From the NCBI RefSeq assembly GCF_001314605.1, contig NZ_LIHP01000012.1:118080-182079 (forward strand): a stretch of DNA of 64,000 nt. Direction: 5' to 3'. Of the stretch, positions 22,438 through 31,089 are shown piece after piece. This DNA is from Marinobacter sp. HL-58. Lineage in GTDB: Bacteria > Pseudomonadota > Gammaproteobacteria > Pseudomonadales > Oleiphilaceae. The translations under genes and the position numbers were made by a program. The notes under the pieces were generated by a model. It did not search any database. It saw only the letters and a program-made list of their open reading frames with translations, and was not told the DNA's origin. The stretch's first letter is position 1. Every line of letters starts with the position of its first letter.

Positions 22438-22475
22438 CCCTTACGACGACGATGCGGATCACAGAGGACCATACT

Positions 22476-23507
22476 ATGGCAAAACGAATGACGACCCGAT
22501 TATTTCTGGTGCTATGGCTCGCGGGCCTTGCCATAAGCGCGAAAGCCGATCTGGTGGTGCTTCAGTACCATCATGTCAGCGATTCAACGCCCGCTTCCAC
22601 AAGCACGTCTGTCTCGCTGTTTGCGGAACAGCTGGAGATGATCGAGGAACTGGAAATCGACGTTGTGCCCCTGGAATCCGGAACCCGTGATGCGCTGGAT
22701 GGCAAACTGAATGATCGCAAGCAGATTGCCATCACTTTCGACGACGCCTACGAATCGGTTTACGACACTGCGGTGCCGGAACTGGAAAAACGGGGCTACC
22801 CCTATACGATTTTCGTCAATACCGATGCGATTGGCAGTCAGGGATACATGACCTGGGAACAGCTTGAAGAAGTGCGTGACAACGACGGCGTGACCATCGC
22901 CAACCACAGTGAAGACCACGGCCATCTGGCCAGGCGTCCTGACGAAAATGAAAGTGACTGGACTCAGCGTGTGGAACGGAGCCTGGACAAGGCCCAGGAC
23001 ACCCTCGAAGACAGGCTGGGCACTGACGTTCCGATGTTTGCCTATCCCTATGGCGAGTTTGACGAAGCCCTGGAGCGCAAAATCGAGGAGCGAGGATGGC
23101 TGGGCTTTGGCCAGCAGTCCGGTGCCATCGGCGAAACCTCTGGTGCCACCCGCCTGCCCCGCTTTCCCATGGCCAACGCTTACGGGCAACTCAACGGCCT
23201 GAAAGACAAACTGCGGAGCAAGGCTTTGCCCGTGGATGCCAATCAGCTTCCTGACGGTGTCATTGATGAAAATCCACCTACACTGACTTTCACCGTACCC
23301 GATTCCATCAGCGTCGACAGGCTCACCTGCTTTGCGTCCGGACAGGGGCGGGTTGATTTCGATGTATCCGGGGATGAACTGACCCTGAAAGCGCCGGACA
23401 GATTCAACAGCCGCCGTTTTCGTTATAACTGCACCCATCCCGTGTCGGATGGCAGTTTTTACTGGCTGTCCCAGCAATGGCTCGACCTGAGCAGGCCGGA
23501 GGACTAG
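22476..23507 (+). CDS. Secreted polysaccharide deacetylase family protein
   Basis: A 343-residue secreted protein with an N-terminal signal peptide (about 1-26, ending near AISAKA) and a NodB-like deacetylase domain. The first catalytic motif is ITFDDAYESVYDTA, giving a likely Asp-Asp pair. The zinc site appears as NHSEDHGHLARR and the late motif as FAYPYGEFDEAL. These support a metal-dependent N- or O-deacetylase acting on an extracytoplasmic glycan. The C-terminal 80 residues form an extra beta-rich domain. ATG 22476 follows AGAGGACC; a start at 22452 lacks this. The gene overlaps the convergent lipoprotein gene by four bases. Confidence 0.86.
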   Translation: MAKRMTTRLFLVLWLAGLAISAKADLVVLQYHHVSDSTPASTSTSVSLFAEQLEMIEELEIDVVPLESGTRDALDGKLNDRKQIAITFDDAYESVYDTAVPELEKRGYPYTIFVNTDAIGSQGYMTWEQLEEVRDNDGVTIANHSEDHGHLARRPDENESDWTQRVERSLDKAQDTLEDRLGTDVPMFAYPYGEFDEALERKIEERGWLGFGQQSGAIGETSGATRLPRFPMANAYGQLNGLKDKLRSKALPVDANQLPDGVIDENPPTLTFTVPDSISVDRLTCFASGQGRVDFDVSGDELTLKAPDRFNSRRFRYNCTHPVSDGSFYWLSQQWLDLSRPED

Positions 23508-24511
23508 TGCCCCTCTTCCCGTGACAGGCCCAGCTCACCGGTACGGGTGTGAGGAATTGCCTCAGGCCCGTATTTGCCTTCGATAACCGTTTGGCCGGCC
23601 AGATCCTCGTCACGGGTGAAAATCACCATCCAGCGCTCTCCCCGCCCGGGAAATACCGGAATATAAGCGTTCAGGTAGCCATGACTGTGCCAGGACTCCG
23701 GGACATATTCCGCTACCAGGTCGGTCACTATTCGCAAGGGCTCAAATGACTCATCCAGAAAAGCGACAGAGGGCACAAAGACGCCATCTTTGGCAAACGA
23801 TCGGAGCTGAAGAATAAAATCCCTGTGCAGATCCGCCGAAGGTAATCTGACCAGCCGGTAGGGACTGTCGCCCGTGCTGAAGGAATAAACGCTGGATTTC
23901 CGGTTCAGGTTAATGCCGAACTCGCGGCCCTGCTGCCACACCTCCGGCTCGGACCTGTCCATATCCCGGCAACACTGGCGCGACCATTGCGTGAAAAAGG
24001 ACTCTGCGCCCGGCTCCATTCCCAGAACCGCCCGGGCTTGTGGGTCGGCCCCTTCGGGCAGATCGGTTTCAGCCGTTGCCTCTCCGGCCTGGTAAATACT
24101 GGCCTCGGTCAGCTGGACCGGCGGTTTGACCCGGCCTTTTTCGACTGCGGATCTGGTATCCGGCTGATAATAGCTGGCACGGACATTACCCTCGGCATCC
24201 CGCCAGGTGAAATAGGGCTGTGGTTCGCCGGGCCGGACATATCCGTCTTTCTCCAGCTGGTTGCCGTCCGGGTAGTTCTCCAGATTGAACTCGTCGTCAG
24301 CAGTCTCTGATGCGTCGTCCTCCGCTGTATCAGAGGACGACTCATCGTCATCACCGGACGTTTTCGGTATCGGGGTATGCCGCACCTGCCCCTGGTCATC
24401 CACCCAGGTGAAATAACCGTCGCGGGCGCCGGATGAGTCAGGGCCGGAGGACTGGCAACCTGCGATCGTGGCGACCAGGCATATGACAACCAGAAAATGG
24501 CATCTATACAT
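23504..24511 (-). CDS. MalM-like lipoprotein with DUF4124-type repeats
   Basis: A 335-residue lipoprotein. The signal peptide ends in the lipobox IAGC (about 17-20). Two short repeats of DUF4124 type follow, GYFTWVDDQGQVRHTPIP and PYFTWRDAEGNVRASYYQP, joined by an acidic linker. The C-terminal part (about 190-315) resembles the E. coli periplasmic maltose-operon protein MalM: VPSVAFLDESFEPLR and then RWMVIFTRDEDLAGQT. The homology is judged by eye. It is the last gene of a four-gene minus-strand operon, 35 bases after the FadL gene. The proximity of malT makes the MalM likeness notable. The function of MalM itself is unsettled. Confidence 0.7.
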   Translation of the reverse strand: MYRCHFLVVICLVATIAGCQSSGPDSSGARDGYFTWVDDQGQVRHTPIPKTSGDDDESSSDTAEDDASETADDEFNLENYPDGNQLEKDGYVRPGEPQPYFTWRDAEGNVRASYYQPDTRSAVEKGRVKPPVQLTEASIYQAGEATAETDLPEGADPQARAVLGMEPGAESFFTQWSRQCCRDMDRSEPEVWQQGREFGINLNRKSSVYSFSTGDSPYRLVRLPSADLHRDFILQLRSFAKDGVFVPSVAFLDESFEPLRIVTDLVAEYVPESWHSHGYLNAYIPVFPGRGERWMVIFTRDEDLAGQTVIEGKYGPEAIPHTRTGELGLSREEGH

Positions 24512-24546
24512 CGGGGCTGATTACCCTGTTTGCAGGCGCTTTCGCG

Positions 24547-26172
24547 TCAGAATTTGGTGCGGAAACTGAGCCCCGCCATCGCAACCCGCAGGGAAGTTTT
24601 AACATCCAGCCCCGCATACGGGTTATAGATGATATTGGTTATGTTGTCACAGTTCAGGTTACAGCTTCCATTGGCAGGAATCGTTTCAATGGACTGAAGG
24701 TAGCTCAGGTTCATATCGATTTCTGTGTCCTTGTCCCACTGATAACCTATCCCCACGCTGTACAGGTTGGCACCACCAAACGGCGCCATGATGCTGCGCT
24801 GATCATCCGGTATGACCGAGTCCCGTATTTCCACCCCTGCCCGGAGATCCAGCCGTGAGGAAGCATGGAATTCCAGGCCAAAACCCCAGTTCCACTGGTC
24901 GGTAAACCCAAGAGGCAATCTCAGGGTCTCGGAAGTGGCGTTGTCCGGCGAGAGAATCTTCGCGGCGTTGAGGAATTCCAACCTGCGATCAAACCGGAAT
25001 ACGAACGCGTCCCACTGTTTGTAGTCGGTCCATCCCACGTCCACATTGACTGTCAGCTTCGGATGAACATCCACGCTGATGCCGGTCTGGAAATGCTGGG
25101 GATAGGTCAGATCCATGGATACGTTACCTGCCTCCCTTGGTGCGCCGGATGGAAGGCTGAGTATGGCCGAGGTAATGGCACCCAGAACCGACCCGTTCAC
25201 GCTCTGCCAGAAGCCGGACCAGTCGTCGGTATACTCGATTTCAAAAGTACCCTTTAGATTCATGTCGGCTTCGGAGGTATAGCTGGCACCCCAGCTGAAC
25301 CAGTCCGTCGGTTCCCACATGACACCCAGCGCATAGGTGGGCGACAGGGTTTCCTGAACATTGATACTGAGCGCGCCAATATCGTCCCAGGGGCCGACAT
25401 TACCGCCGCAAAGTGCAAGCCACGGCTGCAGAGGCTCGTCGCCGCTTTCACAGTTGAAGGCATCCTGAAGTACTTCTGCAACACCCAGCAGCATGTTGGG
25501 AGCGCGCATGTACTGGTCCGCGGCTATACCCATGTGGGACAGATGAATACCGGCACCCACCGCCCATTCGTCATTGATCTGGTAACCGACGGTTGGTGAC
25601 AGATAGGTTGTACGCTGGAGCGCCGTTGCCTGTGGCATATAGCGGCCGGGATCTTCCTTGTCACGGTAGAAACCGGCTGCAAGCGGCAGATAGAAGGCAT
25701 TACCAAAGGTCAGCTTGGACCCCGGAGGGTTGATGCTGATGCCGGCTGACGGAGCAACCGCCGGCCCCGGCGGGGCCCTGAGAATGCCAACCCCTGGCAC
25801 ATAGAGCGCAACGTTATTGGTATGACTGTGCTTGTTGGCAACGGGATCCCGCTGTTTACCCGTCAGTGGATCCGTCTCCAGGCCATCAATGCCGAAGATC
25901 TCATAGCCCTCCGGGGCATGGAAATCCGCATCAATGTCCAGGTAGACACTCATCAGATTCACTTCAAGCTGGCGACCGTCAAGCTTGGTCAGGCCTGCCG
26001 GATTGTAGTGGATAGCCATGAGGCCCGGAGGATCTGCCGTCACCGCGTTCCCCAAGGCCAGCGCTTTGGGGTGGATTGTCAGGTTCTGTGCCAGCTGCGC
26101 CTCGACACCACAGGTCACCGAGGCCGCCATGATGGCACCGGCAATCCGTTTTTTGTGGCTGCTTATACCCAT
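24547..26172 (-). CDS. Outer-membrane transport protein, FadL/OmpP1 family
   Basis: A 541-residue outer-membrane beta-barrel. A signal peptide (about 1-25) is followed by the FadL N-terminal hatch motif (ALGNAVTADPPGLMAIHYNPAGL). Many alternating-hydrophobic strands follow, and the protein ends in GLSFRTKF with the terminal phenylalanine used by the Bam machinery. FadL-family barrels take up hydrophobic substrates by lateral diffusion. Here the substrate is unknown. At 541 residues it is longer than E. coli FadL, with large loops (around residues 50-110 and 215-265) and several cysteines. It lies 37 bases downstream of the small-barrel gene, in the same operon. Confidence 0.88.
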   Translation of the reverse strand: MGISSHKKRIAGAIMAASVTCGVEAQLAQNLTIHPKALALGNAVTADPPGLMAIHYNPAGLTKLDGRQLEVNLMSVYLDIDADFHAPEGYEIFGIDGLETDPLTGKQRDPVANKHSHTNNVALYVPGVGILRAPPGPAVAPSAGISINPPGSKLTFGNAFYLPLAAGFYRDKEDPGRYMPQATALQRTTYLSPTVGYQINDEWAVGAGIHLSHMGIAADQYMRAPNMLLGVAEVLQDAFNCESGDEPLQPWLALCGGNVGPWDDIGALSINVQETLSPTYALGVMWEPTDWFSWGASYTSEADMNLKGTFEIEYTDDWSGFWQSVNGSVLGAITSAILSLPSGAPREAGNVSMDLTYPQHFQTGISVDVHPKLTVNVDVGWTDYKQWDAFVFRFDRRLEFLNAAKILSPDNATSETLRLPLGFTDQWNWGFGLEFHASSRLDLRAGVEIRDSVIPDDQRSIMAPFGGANLYSVGIGYQWDKDTEIDMNLSYLQSIETIPANGSCNLNCDNITNIIYNPYAGLDVKTSLRVAMAGLSFRTKF

Positions 26173-26209
26173 GAAATCTTCCCTTCCCGTAGAACGTCAG
26201 AGGCTGAAC

Positions 26210-27220
26210 TCACTCTTTGAGACCTGAGAATCGGATGGGCAGGGACACACCCAACGAAAAGTCCGGGGCGTCTTCGGTCAGGCCGATACCAATACTGGTA
26301 TTGACGATAGTGGTATCGCTTACACGGGTACCCAGTGACATGCTGAGGAAGCCACTCATCTGATCCTGGGCAACCGCCTCGGACCCATCACTGAAGACGA
26401 GCATGGTTTCGTCGCTGTAACTCAACTGCGCCGAAATGCTCAGAGAGATGTCGTAGGAAAGTGAATAGGCGAAACCGCCCGAGGCGGATAACCCGAAGCC
26501 CGGCTCGACCTCCTCCAGGACACGACCGCCCCGAACCTGTTGCAGACCGGTTTCAGGCAGGTTGTAAGTGGCGCTGGTGGAACCGAATACCACTACCGGG
26601 TCAAGAACCTTGGAGAAGCTCAGGCCACCGGCCAGGGAGTAATAACCGTTGCCCGTCGAAAGCTGTTCGTCGATGTCTATCTCATAGGGGCTCACACCGG
26701 TTTTCGACGTGAACGTACCGAATAACGTGGTCGACATCTTCCCCGGAACGTAGGCAAACGGCTGCCAGCGTGCGGTAGCTGAAATATCGCCGAAATCGTA
26801 GACACTGAGCTCGTCCTGGGTGTCGTGCTTCACGACCAGTGGAATACGGGTGCCTATCGTCAGGTTATCCAGCAAACCGTAATCGTAGGAGAATGCGTTG
26901 GTGAAGTTGTGGGTCGCAGAAGGAACCACGTCCAGATTCCGTACCGAGCCATCAGTGATCGCCAGGTCCAGTCGCTGGTCACCCGTGTAGGAGTAATCGA
27001 AGGAATAATTCAGGGAATGGGTTCCCTTCTTCTGGAGCGAATAACTGGTCTCGGCGGACTGGAACACCTCTTCCAGTTGCTTTGACGAGTCTTCATCGCC
27101 CTCCTGCTTTGAGAGTGCTTCCCTGGCCTGGTCTACGTTTCCTTCCTGTGACATTGCCATGGTTGAGTAAAGGCCAGTCACGGAAAAAAGGATAAAACCT
27201 CGCACTAACCAACGATTCAT
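26210..27220 (-). CDS. Predicted outer-membrane beta-barrel with N-terminal helical segment (FapF-like)
   Basis: A 336-residue exported protein: signal peptide (about 1-24), a charged helical stretch of about 40 residues (AREALSKQEGDEDSSKQLEE) with coiled-coil character, then a long run of amphipathic strands ending in SLPIRFSGLKE. This plan resembles FapF, the amyloid-export pore of the Fap system, and the MetA-degradation transporter group, but it is shorter and I could not align it. The terminal residues are not the canonical aromatic Bam signal. Preceded by a C39 peptidase gene (FapD-like) and followed by a FadL gene. No fapA, fapB or fapC gene is nearby, so the exported or assembled substrate is unknown. 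Confidence 0.65.
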   Translation of the reverse strand: MNRWLVRGFILFSVTGLYSTMAMSQEGNVDQAREALSKQEGDEDSSKQLEEVFQSAETSYSLQKKGTHSLNYSFDYSYTGDQRLDLAITDGSVRNLDVVPSATHNFTNAFSYDYGLLDNLTIGTRIPLVVKHDTQDELSVYDFGDISATARWQPFAYVPGKMSTTLFGTFTSKTGVSPYEIDIDEQLSTGNGYYSLAGGLSFSKVLDPVVVFGSTSATYNLPETGLQQVRGGRVLEEVEPGFGLSASGGFAYSLSYDISLSISAQLSYSDETMLVFSDGSEAVAQDQMSGFLSMSLGTRVSDTTIVNTSIGIGLTEDAPDFSLGVSLPIRFSGLKE

Positions 27221-27279
27221 CCTGACTCCCTTATTTTACTTGTAGTGGTTGCTGCGCCCCGGCTTTGCGCCAACGCACG

Positions 27280-28080
27280 TTAATTGCGACGATAGAACAG
27301 CTGCTTTCGGGTATTCTCGACACTGCCGTCCGGATTGTTTTTCTGACGTTCCAGCATGTTCCGGATCCGTCGTTCCGTAGATTCGTGAAATTCGGGAATC
27401 TTCTGCAGGGCCAGTAATGTCATCGTCTGGTCATCCACGAACCGCAGGTCCTCTTCTTTCAGCTCGAGGTAATCCAGTGGTTTGTCACTGCCCGGGAAGA
27501 CGATAAAGAGAACATTGTCGTCCCACTTTTCCTCGAACTGGTCGAGCGTGAAGGAGATGTTGCCAACCGCCGGGTCTGCCAGGTACACGCGCCCGTCGCG
27601 GATGGTTCTGAGTACCACGAAGTGCTTGAACCCGGCGTGCTGAATGGGAACGATGGCCGGGTGATCAAGGTCGATCAGATCATCGATGGTGGCGCGGAAG
27701 CCACCGGACGGGTAACCCAGGGCGGTTACCAGGCGCTTCATGTCCAGCATCGAGAACGCCCGGCGCTGAACAATGCGCTCACTTTCGCCATAATGAAGCA
27801 GGCCTTCCATCACTTGCCTCTCACCCAGGTTCCGGCCCAGGTAGTAATTGAGCACGGTGGTCAGCGCCGCACTGCCACAGCTGTAGTCATAGGCCTGCCG
27901 CACAATATTGCGAAACTGCTGTTCTACCAGTGGCTCCACACGCGTGTCGGTTCTCAGCTCGACCGGGCTGGTGTCGAAATCCTGCTCAATCACGACGGTC
28001 CCCTGCTGATAAGGCTCAACCTCGACTGCCTCCTGGGCCATGGTGAAAGTGAGAATGGATCCGGCGAGTACCAGCAGCAT
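27280..28080 (-). CDS. Periplasmic C39-family cysteine peptidase (FapD-like)
   Basis: A 266-residue protein with an N-terminal signal peptide (about 1-16) and a papain-like C39 domain. The catalytic cysteine is in YDYSCGSAALTTVLNYYLG, the histidine in HAGFKHFVVLR, and the Asp in YLADPAVGN, so the triad is intact. C39 domains usually cleave double-glycine leaders. Free-standing exported C39 proteins include FapD of the functional-amyloid system, which this resembles in size and context. It is the first gene of a minus-strand operon with two outer-membrane barrels and a lipoprotein, divergent from malT across 252 bases. No short gene with a Gly-Gly leader was found beside it. Confidence 0.82.
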   Translation of the reverse strand: MLLVLAGSILTFTMAQEAVEVEPYQQGTVVIEQDFDTSPVELRTDTRVEPLVEQQFRNIVRQAYDYSCGSAALTTVLNYYLGRNLGERQVMEGLLHYGESERIVQRRAFSMLDMKRLVTALGYPSGGFRATIDDLIDLDHPAIVPIQHAGFKHFVVLRTIRDGRVYLADPAVGNISFTLDQFEEKWDDNVLFIVFPGSDKPLDYLELKEEDLRFVDDQTMTLLALQKIPEFHESTERRIRNMLERQKNNPDGSVENTRKQLFYRRN

Positions 28081-28284
28081 GGTCAGACGAAGTCCCTGTT
28101 ATTATTAGACATGACGTTTCCCGAGTTACATCTTGTTACGGTAAGATACCGAAATCGCTACCTCCTTAAAGATAACTGTGCCTCAAATCTGCCGGTGCAG
28201 AAGGGGTCCTCCCTACCCGTTTTGAGAACTGGTTCATGCCCGCCAGGACACAGCGCGGAGAAGTTGACGCCGAAGATGAAAGCC

Positions 28285-28315
28285 GGTATCACATCCCTTG
28301 CCACTGTCTGATACC
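28285..28315. promoter_or_regulatory. Interrupted inverted repeat in the malT / C39 divergent region
   Basis: GGTATCA and TGATACC are perfect 7-base arms separated by 17 bases, ending 17 bases before the malT ATG. The region between the divergent genes (252 bases) contains no recognisable MalT box. Whether the repeat is an operator is unknown. Confidence 0.3.
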
Positions 28316-28332
28316 AATTACTGAAGATCCTG

Positions 28333-31089
28333 ATGACAACAACACTGAATCCGGGACAACTGACGTTCATTGCCGCCAAAAACCAGAGCCCGCAGCCACC
28401 ACCCGCCTTGCTGCACCGGGAGAAGTTCAACGACCTTCTCCATGATCTGGAGCCGGTAAGCCTGCTGCTGGTTCACGCCCCGGCGGGTTACGGCAAGACC
28501 ACCACCGTGGCAGACCGCCTCGACGTTCCGGAGGCAACCACAGCCTGGTACCGGCTGGAAGCAGGCGACAATGACCCGGCCCGATTCGCGGGCTACCTGG
28601 CCAAAGCACTGGAAGTAGCCGTGCCCGGCAGCTGTGCTGCTACTCTTCGCAAACTGCAGGAACAGGGTTACGACAATTCCGAGAGCTTCCTCACCGATCT
28701 GCTGGCAGAACTGCCACTGGACGAGGGCCCGGTGTACCTGGTTCTGGACGACTACCACCTGATCAGCAACCCGGAGATCCATGACGCCCTGCGTTTTCTG
28801 CTGAGGCATCAGCCGGCCAGCCTGACACTGGTACTGATTACCCGGACCGTGCCGCCCATCGGCGTTGCCCAGTTGCGCATGCAGGGGCGGATGTCTGAAA
28901 TCACATCCCGGGATCTGGCTTTCGGTGCTGATGAGGCGCAGCAGTATTTTGACAGCCGCCTACCGTTCGAGATTTCCCGTGAAAGTATTGAGAGGGCCGT
29001 CAGGCGGGTTGAAGGCTGGGTGTCTGCGCTTCAGCTTCTGTCCGCTTCGGCAGTGACCAGCATTGAATTCAATGATTTTGTGGATCAGCTCGAATTCGGC
29101 AATCAGCATATTTTCGACTATTTCGACGAACTGGTTGGCCACGGCCTGACGGACCAGCAGCGGAAATTCCTGCTGCGCACCAGCATTCTGGACCGCTTCA
29201 ATGCCAGGATGGTCATGCGGGTAATGGATGACAGCAACGGCCAGGCGCTACTCAGTGGCTTGCTTGCCATGGGGCTGTTTATCAACCCCGTAGACAACTC
29301 CGCCCTGTGGTTTCGCTACCATCCGTTATTTTCGGTTTACCTGCGGCATTTGCTGAATTGCACAACAGAGGAGAACCGGCAGCAGTTGCATCAGCGTGCC
29401 TGCGACGCCTGGCTGGAGCTGGACCACGCGGAAGAAGCGGCCAGGCACGCCATCGAAGCCGACGACCCGGAGCGAATTACCCGGGTACTGACAGTCCACG
29501 GCCAGAAATTCTTCACCGAAGGCCAGTTCATGCTTCTGCAGCGCTGCCTTGATGCCCTGCCCCAGGATGTTATTGCCCGGGACCCGACACTGACCCTGCT
29601 CCGGGCCTGGGTGGCCCAGGGACAATACCAGTTCGATGAGGTGGAGAACTGGCTGTCGGCTGCCGAAGCAAGACTGGCAGCATCCATGACTGAAGACACA
29701 CAGCGGGCTGTATATGCCGAATTCAGTGCCATCCGCGCCCAGGTTGCGATGAATTATGGTGACGGTGAACGGGCACTGGTACTGGCGAGGGAAGCCATAG
29801 ACCAGGAGGCCCGCTACCTTCCCACATCCCGCGTAGCCGCTGCCTCCGTCATCGGGGAGGCACTGTTCGTGCAGGGCGAGCTCGAAGAAGCCCTGGTCCG
29901 CATGCAGGAAACCGAACATCTGGCCCGTGCTCACCAGGCGCACCAGAACGTGATCTGGGCATTGTGCCAGCAGTCCGAAATCAGTGTTGCCATGGGGTTA
30001 CTGCAGAAGGCGTACAACATCCAGGAACGTGGCTTCCAGTACGCCGAAGAAAACAATCTCAACCACCTTCCGATTCTGGAATTCCTGTTCCGGATCCGCA
30101 GCCAGATCATGTGGGAATGGCACCATCTGGAAAACGCCGAGCGCTGTGCCCTGCAGGGTATCGAGATTCTGGAGGCCCAGGGCGAGCGCTGGTACGTGCA
30201 GAGCTACACCTCCCTGGCCAAGGTTGCCCATGCCCGTGGGAGCCAGAGCCTCTGTGCCGACTACATTGCCAAGATCCAGAAAATGCTGGCTTCGGGCGAT
30301 TATCATCTGGACTGGGTTGCCAATGCCCACGCCACCATGCTCGCCTACTGGGATGCCGTCAGGGACCATGACGCCATCCAGCGCTGGCTCACCATTGCAC
30401 CACCGGTGGACCCCGATTCCGCCACCAATCATTTCAACCAGTGTAATGGCCGCAACCGGGCCCGGGCCTACATGAGCCTGGGGCTTTACAGCAAGGCACA
30501 GCCGCTGTTGTCAGGTTTGCAGACGGTGGCGGAACAGGTTGGCCTGAAAACCGACCTGAATCGCAACCACATTGCCCTGGCATTGCTGTACTGGAACACC
30601 GACGACAGGGAGAATGCACTCCGGCACATGGTGACCGCGCTCCAGCTGGCCAGTACCACCGGTGCCGTGGGTAGCTTCCTGCGCATGGGCAAGGTATTGA
30701 TTGTGATACTGAAGGCGCTGATCAATGACGAAGCCATCGACGGCATGGAACTGCAACGGGCGGAAAGACTCATCCAGCTGGCGCAGCAGCAACGGGATTT
30801 CAGCCGCGCTATTCGCATATCACTGGATGAAGCCATCATTCAGGATATCATTGACCGCCCCGATGTACCCGAGCTGATCCGGACTTCACCACTCACACGC
30901 CGGGAGTGGCAGATACTGAGCCTGATTCACGCCGGGCTCTCCAATGACCAGATTGCCGAGCACCTGAAAGTGGCCTCGACAACCGTCAAGACCCACATTC
31001 GCAGCCTGTACCAGAAGCAGAATATCAGCCACCGGTCCGAGGCCATTGAACTGGCCAAGGACCTGCTCAGCAAGATCCAGGGCGAGTGA
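28333..31089 (+). CDS. malT: Maltose regulon activator MalT (LuxR family, ATP-dependent)
   Basis: A 918-residue STAND-class activator. The N-terminal ATPase has Walker A in HAPAGYGKTTT (about residue 50) and the segment VYLVLDDYHLISNPEIHDALRF. A long helical-repeat sensor region follows, then a C-terminal LuxR helix-turn-helix: SPLTRREWQILSLIHAGLSN through VKTHIRSLYQKQN. Wording throughout matches E. coli MalT (901 residues) far better than AlkS-like regulators. In E. coli MalT binds ATP and maltotriose, then binds GGGGA(T/G)GAGG-type boxes. Similar boxes lie before the alpha-glucosidase and malE genes in this window. Inhibition by MalK is known in E. coli, but only inferred here. Confidence 0.93.
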   Translation: MTTTLNPGQLTFIAAKNQSPQPPPALLHREKFNDLLHDLEPVSLLLVHAPAGYGKTTTVADRLDVPEATTAWYRLEAGDNDPARFAGYLAKALEVAVPGSCAATLRKLQEQGYDNSESFLTDLLAELPLDEGPVYLVLDDYHLISNPEIHDALRFLLRHQPASLTLVLITRTVPPIGVAQLRMQGRMSEITSRDLAFGADEAQQYFDSRLPFEISRESIERAVRRVEGWVSALQLLSASAVTSIEFNDFVDQLEFGNQHIFDYFDELVGHGLTDQQRKFLLRTSILDRFNARMVMRVMDDSNGQALLSGLLAMGLFINPVDNSALWFRYHPLFSVYLRHLLNCTTEENRQQLHQRACDAWLELDHAEEAARHAIEADDPERITRVLTVHGQKFFTEGQFMLLQRCLDALPQDVIARDPTLTLLRAWVAQGQYQFDEVENWLSAAEARLAASMTEDTQRAVYAEFSAIRAQVAMNYGDGERALVLAREAIDQEARYLPTSRVAAASVIGEALFVQGELEEALVRMQETEHLARAHQAHQNVIWALCQQSEISVAMGLLQKAYNIQERGFQYAEENNLNHLPILEFLFRIRSQIMWEWHHLENAERCALQGIEILEAQGERWYVQSYTSLAKVAHARGSQSLCADYIAKIQKMLASGDYHLDWVANAHATMLAYWDAVRDHDAIQRWLTIAPPVDPDSATNHFNQCNGRNRARAYMSLGLYSKAQPLLSGLQTVAEQVGLKTDLNRNHIALALLYWNTDDRENALRHMVTALQLASTTGAVGSFLRMGKVLIVILKALINDEAIDGMELQRAERLIQLAQQQRDFSRAIRISLDEAIIQDIIDRPDVPELIRTSPLTRREWQILSLIHAGLSNDQIAEHLKVASTTVKTHIRSLYQKQNISHRSEAIELAKDLLSKIQGE

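Follow-up and report, generated by a model that had tools for sequence, protein, structure and literature searches.

A Fil-like operon with a proposed export role and dispersed, tag-bearing candidate cargo proteins in Marinobacter sp. HL-58

Results and Discussion

The stretch of the Marinobacter sp. HL-58 genome analysed here ("the window": 64,000 nucleotides, positions 118,080 to 182,079 of contig NZ_LIHP01000012.1) contains an operon of four genes which, by sequence comparison, are homologues of filB, filC and filD and, probably, of filE of the Fil system, a putative pilus system of Acinetobacter. We consider it likely that this operon supplies the FilB, FilC, FilD and FilE components of a Fil (FapF-like) machine for export and fibre assembly. 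The cargo genes would be dispersed over the genome and would encode FilA/DUF6160-type proteins that carry a short conserved peptide ("the tag") behind the signal peptide. The matches to the Fil models stay under NCBI's curated cut-offs, and the operon is therefore best described as a divergent relative of the Acinetobacter system. The four open reading frames (ORFs) lie on the minus strand between positions 23504 and 28080, with gaps of 59, 37 and 35 bases between neighbours, in the tight arrangement described in an earlier reading made from the letters of the window alone (hereafter the sequence-only reading). Of its two suggestions, an export machine with an unlinked substrate and an outer-membrane route for maltodextrins, the first has stood and the second has not, and the little-studied Fil system went unrecognised in it.

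Relationship of the operon to the Fil system

The sequence-only reading likened the first two genes to FapD and FapF of the Fap amyloid export system. The matches to the Fap models are real, but the Fil models fit far better. The FilB homologue matches the C39 peptidase family PF03412 (E 5.8e-19) and the FilB model NF050078 (E 6e-87, 291.5 bits against a cut-off of 475), with the FapD model NF058616 in second place (E 2.8e-36). Gln, Cys, His and Asp at the places expected of a C39 peptidase are invariant in six of six aligned FilB sequences, in agreement with the exported peptidase with intact Cys-His-Asp residues that had been described. The FilC homologue matches the FilC model NF050079 with E 5.7e-103 and, second to it, the FapF model NF058560 with E 3e-19. 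An AlphaFold model of FilC, computed from 40 sequences, is a barrel with N-terminal helical stretches (mean predicted local distance difference test score, pLDDT, 82.7), as the sequence-only reading had foreseen. A comparison of this 336-residue protein with FapF had been proposed there, and the best solved matches are indeed FapF: FapF chains occupy the first 18 Foldseek rows (best E 2.1e-20), and a second aligner superposes the model on FapF 5o65 with Z 29.2, a root-mean-square deviation (rmsd) of 2.1 and 24% identity over 266 aligned residues, followed by the COG4313 channel 4rl8 with Z 24.1. By its predicted fold, FilC is a FapF-type channel.

The third gene belongs to the FadL family, as had been read from its sequence (PF03349, E 1.6e-66), and matches the FilD model NF050080 with E 2.4e-168. 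The fourth is a lipoprotein, by inspection of its IAGC signal, with a MalM match (E 9.8e-13); both parts of its earlier description as a MalM-like lipoprotein are thus borne out. It also matches DUF4124 just under the Pfam cut-off (E 4e-4), and FilE_C finds no match in it. In an Alcanivorax protein encoded at this position, MalM (E 0.0031) and FilE_C (E 0.011) align to one and the same stretch, each scoring under its curated cut-off; two of ten proteins from this position match neither. A profile comparison of the gene 4 group with Moraxellaceae FilE gives a probability of 98.3 and E 1.9e-14. We read gene 4 as FilE-like, its MalM-like domain being a putative remote relative of the FilE C-terminal domain.

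Candidate cargo proteins and their co-occurrence with the machine

No tagged ORF lies within the window, and filA is not upstream of filB here. A search of the whole genome with a FilA model gave matches at four places (best E 1.6e-9), which hold seven ORFs: three places have a single ORF each, and the fourth, on contig 15, has a row of four. Five of the seven pass the Pfam cut-off for DUF6160 and two fall below it. A profile of the tag adds a match on contig 7 and one weak match on contig 21. Excluding the latter, there are about eight FilA/DUF6160-type candidates at five places, in which a signal peptide is followed, by inspection, by a tag such as LQAMDDSTMGDVTGQAG. The four tagged proteins on contig 15 (L026:4191-9442 in G000, the genome of the window) measure 182 to 856 amino acids as listed; the listed start of the longest is probably too far upstream. 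Two of them entered the comparison of mature parts described below, and their mature parts show no similarity to each other.

FilA of Acinetobacter sp. Tol 5 was detected in triacylglycerol-grown cells with long curved fibres, which were deduced to be Fil fimbriae (PMC3498257), and it is named the subunit of the Fil pilus (PMC11784438). We infer that the FilA-type proteins of the present genome may have a fibre role. No description of DUF6160 proteins as cargo, or of a shared tag, was found in the accessible parts of the open-access literature searched.

Machine and candidate cargo occur in the same genomes. In 38 relatives, a strong FilC match (E 3e-48 or better) and a DUF6160 match come together without exception: 24 genomes have both and 14 have neither. 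In 369 genomes of the class, with thresholds of E 2e-58 or better for FilC and E 1e-4 or better for DUF6160, both are found in the same 6; nine further genomes have weak FapF-like FilC matches only and no DUF6160. The corresponding chance values, which ignore phylogeny, are 1e-10 and 3e-13. Within the genus, three genomes (G004, G006 and G014) have neither a FilC nor a DUF6160 match and the other 22 carry 2 to 9 DUF6160 matches. A tree of a single gene, with weak inner branches and covering 18 of the genus's 25 genomes and 4 further ones, rejects a single clade for these three genomes (approximately unbiased test, p-AU 0.0031), so that FilC and DUF6160 were probably lost jointly more than once. 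The unlinked substrate that the sequence-only reading had postulated for a Fap-like export machine has thereby found candidates, encoded apart from a channel that is predicted to fold like FapF and present in the same genomes as that channel.

The tag behind the export signal

The tag of FilA-type proteins has the form LxxMDDxxLxxVTGQxG and follows the signal peptide in the register of a double-glycine leader, with Gln at position -1. The consensus of double-glycine leaders has hydrophobic residues at -12 and -7, Gly at -2, and Gly, Ala or Ser at -1. When 91 FilA-type tags are numbered with Gly at -2, position -12 is Met or Leu in 88, position -10 is Asp in 81, position -7 is Leu or Met in 89 and position -2 is Gly in 84, where positions -2, -1, +1 and +2 belonged to the pattern by which the tags were selected. 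Of 86 FilA-type secreted ORFs, 74 show the register pattern, compared with none of the 176 FilB-F ORFs and 17 of 522 further secreted ORFs, secretion being called by a crude signal-peptide rule. The invariant columns in an alignment of 45 FilA proteins are a Thr and two Gly of the tag, one column of the signal peptide and one close to the end of the protein. The rows were chosen by a pattern in which the second Gly was required and the choice at the first Gly and at the Gln was restricted, which makes the conservation of those columns partly a matter of construction. A strict tag pattern is present in 84 of 92 FilA-type ORFs, in one of them (L165) at the wrong place. Seven of the eight ORFs without it show a close variant, and the remaining one (L123) could not be judged.

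The mature parts behind the tag are diverse. They were compared in 30 tagged proteins that passed a script filter, many of them short, so that remote similarity may be missed. For 12 tagged proteins from two genomes of the class with FilB and FilC and no FilD match, one of 66 pairs was similar at E 1e-3. The tag profile gives 5 to 21 matches in each of eight genomes with the fil genes (fil+). Five of these (G000, G044, G175, G247 and G288) supplied the proteins from which the profile was built and match by construction; the three outside its making give 5 (G047), 7 (G010) and 8 (G030) matches. Six genomes without the fil genes (fil-) give 0, 0, 0, 0, 1 and 1 matches, none of which covers the tag. 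Given the diverse mature parts, and profile matches that extend over the tag in fil+ but not in fil- genomes, the tag looks like a movable address. None of the NCBIfam bacteriocin-leader models matched ten tag peptides.

A separate observation concerns G014, one of the genomes without fil: a small protein with a double-glycine-like LSEQEMMETEGAF motif is encoded there beside a C39 gene (L233:4445-4843).

Synteny in relatives and origin of the split

A scan of named genomes for FilD found 517 relatives, and synteny was analysed in the best 80 of these 517, which come from Acinetobacter, Alcanivorax, Alkanindiges, Agitococcus, Fluviicoccus and various metagenome bins. The sequence-only reading passed the check on conserved synteny that it had set itself: the order filB-C-D was found in 76 of the best 80 loci, and in the remaining four the operon is truncated by the start of the contig. 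Among the 73 loci with at least 2.5 kilobases (kb) upstream of filB, a FilA-type gene stands upstream of filB in 64 by BLAST and a tagged ORF in six more, the exceptions being L106, L107 and L142. The gene pabB is near filB in 65 of the 69 loci with at least 5 kb upstream.

The window's own genome has cysH-thrH-pabB, followed by one small gene and then a DUF6160 gene, and the 15-kb stretch around this place contains no fil machine gene. Since a DUF6160 gene is found at pabB here, where most of the relatives examined keep the whole operon, machine and cargo appear to have become separated; on the simplest reading of these gene orders, filBCDE and filA once formed a single operon at pabB, which came apart in this genus. 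In G030, a 1541-amino-acid ORF lies between filD and filE inside the fil operon (L010:2603-7228) and contains a weak DUF6160-like stretch (E 3.2e-5, below the cut-off).

Comparison with Fap and other C39 systems

In the Fap system, FapF is described as the pore through which the amyloid subunits pass, and secretion as dependent on the active-site cysteine of FapD, a periplasmic C39 protease: a Cys-to-Ala change abolished the secretion of FapC (PMC5557850). The target of FapD was unclear to those authors. FapE alone showed complete N-terminal processing; canonical C39 sequences were said to be absent from the Fap proteins, and attention was drawn to GG and GA motifs in FapE (PMC5557850). A second source describes the FapD substrate as yet to be determined (PMC6173800).

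FapE homologues were found in seven of ten genomes searched (five genera), all under the NCBI cut-off, with tags such as LSDPELAQMRGRF behind the signal. Aligned on Gly -2, FapE and FilA tags have in common a hydrophobic residue at -12, Asp at -10 and Leu or Met at -7. The residue at -1 in 15 FapE-type tags, which comprise 7 FapE homologues and 8 of 11 FapE-like proteins of the second cluster described below, is Gly in eight, Arg in five and Lys in two. The FapE homologues of seven genomes of the class (L235-L241) have tags resembling [LVI][STP][DES]xx[LM]xxxRG[RK][FY], a candidate cut site for FapD.

The present genome also contains a second, separate C39/FapF-like cluster (L009:7871-13291 on contig 8 of G000), with genes for an Asn/Asp/Ser-rich repeat protein, a small N/Q-rich protein, a C39 peptidase, a FapE-like protein, a FapF-like barrel and a probable sigma-54-type activator; in G013 there is a tandem duplication (L225). 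Its FapE-like protein has a canonical double-glycine tag LSDPELSEYRGGF, or close variants of it, behind a Sec signal at 10 of 13 loci and is lacking at the other 3. In G000 nothing matches the FapE model at E 0.1 or better; the distant FapE-like protein of this cluster scores E 0.11.

The operon in the window resembles Fap of Pseudomonas (FapA-F) in having an exported C39 peptidase and a FapF-fold channel side by side, with NCBI cut-offs not reached, and the tag of FapE homologues is in the same register as that of FilA-type proteins. Unlike Fap, the operon contains no fapA, fapB, fapC or fapE, as the sequence-only reading had remarked; they are absent by inspection, and no genome-wide search was aimed at FapB or FapC. 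It has in addition a FadL-type barrel and a lipoprotein, its candidate cargo tag ends in GQxG rather than RG[GRK][FY], and a FapE-model match is missing from the genome. With the C39 exporters of the ATP-binding cassette (ABC) type and their double-glycine leaders it shares the peptidase family, hydrophobic residues at -12 and -7 and Gly at -2; it differs from them in that the peptidase is exported and not cytosolic, the tag follows a Sec signal, FilA proteins have Gln at -1, and the channel is a FapF-type barrel. The likeness to Acinetobacter Fil (filABCDEF) extends to the order and strong homology of FilB, FilC and FilD, probably to FilE, by position and profile, and to the FilA-type DUF6160 proteins in the genome, while the differences are that filA lies outside the operon, that several FilA-type paralogues occur at other places, that FilF was not found and that FilB, FilC and FilD score below curated cut-offs.

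Proposed mechanism and alternatives

FilA/DUF6160-type proteins would cross the inner membrane by Sec, as their signal peptides suggest. Signal peptidase would remove the signal and free a short double-glycine-like propeptide with the conserved pattern observed in the tags (hydrophobic -12 and -7, Asp -10, Gly -2). FilB would recognise this propeptide in the periplasm and probably remove it, and the protein would then pass through the FapF-like channel FilC, a step suggested by fold homology, to the surface, where at least FilA may form fibres as reported for Acinetobacter sp. Tol 5. FilD and FilE would be accessory: G047, G175 and G288 keep FilB, FilC and tagged proteins, yet a search of them at E 1e-30 gave no FilD match. 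Cleavage of the tag and export by this machine are what we infer from these comparisons.

Several observations weigh against this proposal. The matches of FilB, FilC and FilD are all below NCBI curated cut-offs, and FilF was not found in the own genome (best E 0.28); the FilF seed matches just 36 of the 80 related loci, some of which are truncated. The co-occurrence in the class consists of 6 positive genomes in 5 families with phylogeny ignored, and the sole DUF6160 match in one of them, G047, is below the Pfam cut-off (25.5 bits). FilB is a less clean marker than FilC: because of Fap-type paralogues its model matches 27 of the 38 relatives, strongly (E 1e-70 or better) in 23, and G026 (75% complete, 310 contigs) has FilC and DUF6160 with a weak FilB match. 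Two of the six fil- genomes give one weak tag-profile match each, to the signal peptide only. The FilA fold has no firm solved match in a search with a model of Alcanivorax FilA (best Foldseek E 0.018). Finally, position -1 is Gln in 87 of 91 FilA tags and Arg in the other 4. Classical C39 substrates have Gly, sometimes Ala, at this position (PMC5557850), and the cut may therefore lie elsewhere, or FilB may only bind.

The last point leads to a different scenario, in which FilB is a C39-like holder and not the tag protease, the tag is a retained docking signal and the cargo is handed to FilC uncut. Gln instead of Gly at -1 would be accounted for, and catalytically inactive C39-like domains are known (PMC5557850, PMC6173800). 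However, the Cys, His, Asp and Gln residues of FilB are invariant in all six aligned sequences, and the Cys-to-Ala change in the related FapD put an end to FapC secretion (PMC5557850). We regard this scenario as unlikely.

FilBCDE might alternatively mature or assemble tagged proteins of the outer membrane or periplasm rather than secrete fibres. FilD and FilE suggest an envelope complex and the mature parts of the tagged proteins are diverse, which would fit such a role. The Alcanivorax FilA model (mostly beta, pLDDT 83.1) contains long beta strands, and the structures that score the highest Z against it are outer-membrane barrels (poor rmsd). On the other hand, descriptions of Tol 5 FilA make it a fibre protein of the cell surface (PMC3498257, PMC11784438), and FapF, to which FilC is structurally closest, is described as a secretion pore (PMC5557850). 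We rate this alternative as unlikely too, and somewhat more so than a holder function of FilB.

Among solved structures, the Foldseek row at E 0.018 is 9xfv, a "pilus-like" filament from a cave, which aligns to the Alcanivorax FilA model with a VIA Z of 5.9 and an rmsd of 2.8 over 90 residues (26% identity). Nothing relevant on 9xfv was found in the open-access literature searched, and we treat the likeness of this structure to the predicted FilA fold as a lead only. By sequence, no solved FilA relative scores better than E 0.015, a designed ankyrin protein and chance-like.

Setting of the operon and the neighbouring malT gene

The features of the operon and its upstream side are collected in Table 1. 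On the downstream side, a polysaccharide deacetylase gene (window positions 22452-23507) converges on filE, and fil has this gene at its flank in the 5 other genomes of the genus that were examined.

Table 1. Features of the fil-like operon and its upstream neighbour, in window positions
Feature	Positions	Strand	Basis
filB homologue: exported, presumably periplasmic C39 cysteine peptidase, 266 amino acids	27280..28080	-	PF03412, NF050078
filC homologue: predicted FapF-type outer-membrane barrel with helical N-terminus, 336 amino acids	26210..27220	-	NF050079, AlphaFold, Foldseek
filD homologue: FadL/TodX-family outer-membrane barrel, 541 amino acids	24547..26172	-	PF03349, NF050080
filE-like lipoprotein, 335 amino acids, with DUF4124-like stretch and C-terminal MalM/FilE_C-type domain	23504..24511	-	MalM match, profile comparison
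Divergent intergenic stretch filB/malT, putative operon promoter	28081..28332		by reading
malT, neighbour judged outside the system	28333..31089	+	NF003420

The divergent gene is malT, as had been read from the sequence (NF003420, 1101 bits against a cut-off of 537). Its position next to filB invites the notion of outer-membrane uptake of maltodextrins or other nutrients tied to MalT, with FilC and FilD as uptake channels. FilD is of the FadL type, FilC also resembles the COG4313 channel 4rl8, and gene 4 has a MalM-like domain, all of which would suit uptake. The linkage to malT is, however, peculiar to this genome among those compared: the gene upstream of filB is not malT in any of five other same-genus genomes, where the deacetylase/ttcA-like flank is kept, and malT is next to filB in none of the 80 stretches of relatives that were analysed. 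A LamB gene is present on the same contig (G000:C3:201967-203196), about 20 kb beyond the window end at 182079. Across nine genomes LamB and fil are decoupled, G001 and G010 having fil without LamB and G014 having LamB without fil. FapF is, moreover, structurally closer to FilC than 4rl8. The maltodextrin route of the sequence-only reading is accordingly rejected, and nutrient uptake in general seems to us very improbable.

Implications

The Fil system itself is already described and little studied. New here are an apparently movable tag, its counterpart in FapE, and the exact co-occurrence of FilC and DUF6160 across the genomes examined. As a tentative idea, for which we would claim somewhat less than an even chance, Fil and Fap could be two branches of one class of address-tag secretion, in which a Sec signal is followed by a double-glycine-like propeptide that is read by a periplasmic C39 peptidase and leads to a FapF-type channel. 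Such systems would serve 15 or more unrelated, scattered cargo proteins in some genomes, and FapE would be a direct target of FapD, cut behind RG[R/K/G]. The shared tag names candidates with a predicted cut region for both peptidases, namely FilA/DUF6160 proteins for FilB and FapE for FapD. If the proposal is correct, it would give a function to DUF6160, a Pfam family of unknown function, and would mean that a machine of this kind can serve cargo encoded far from it, which surveys of gene neighbourhoods miss.

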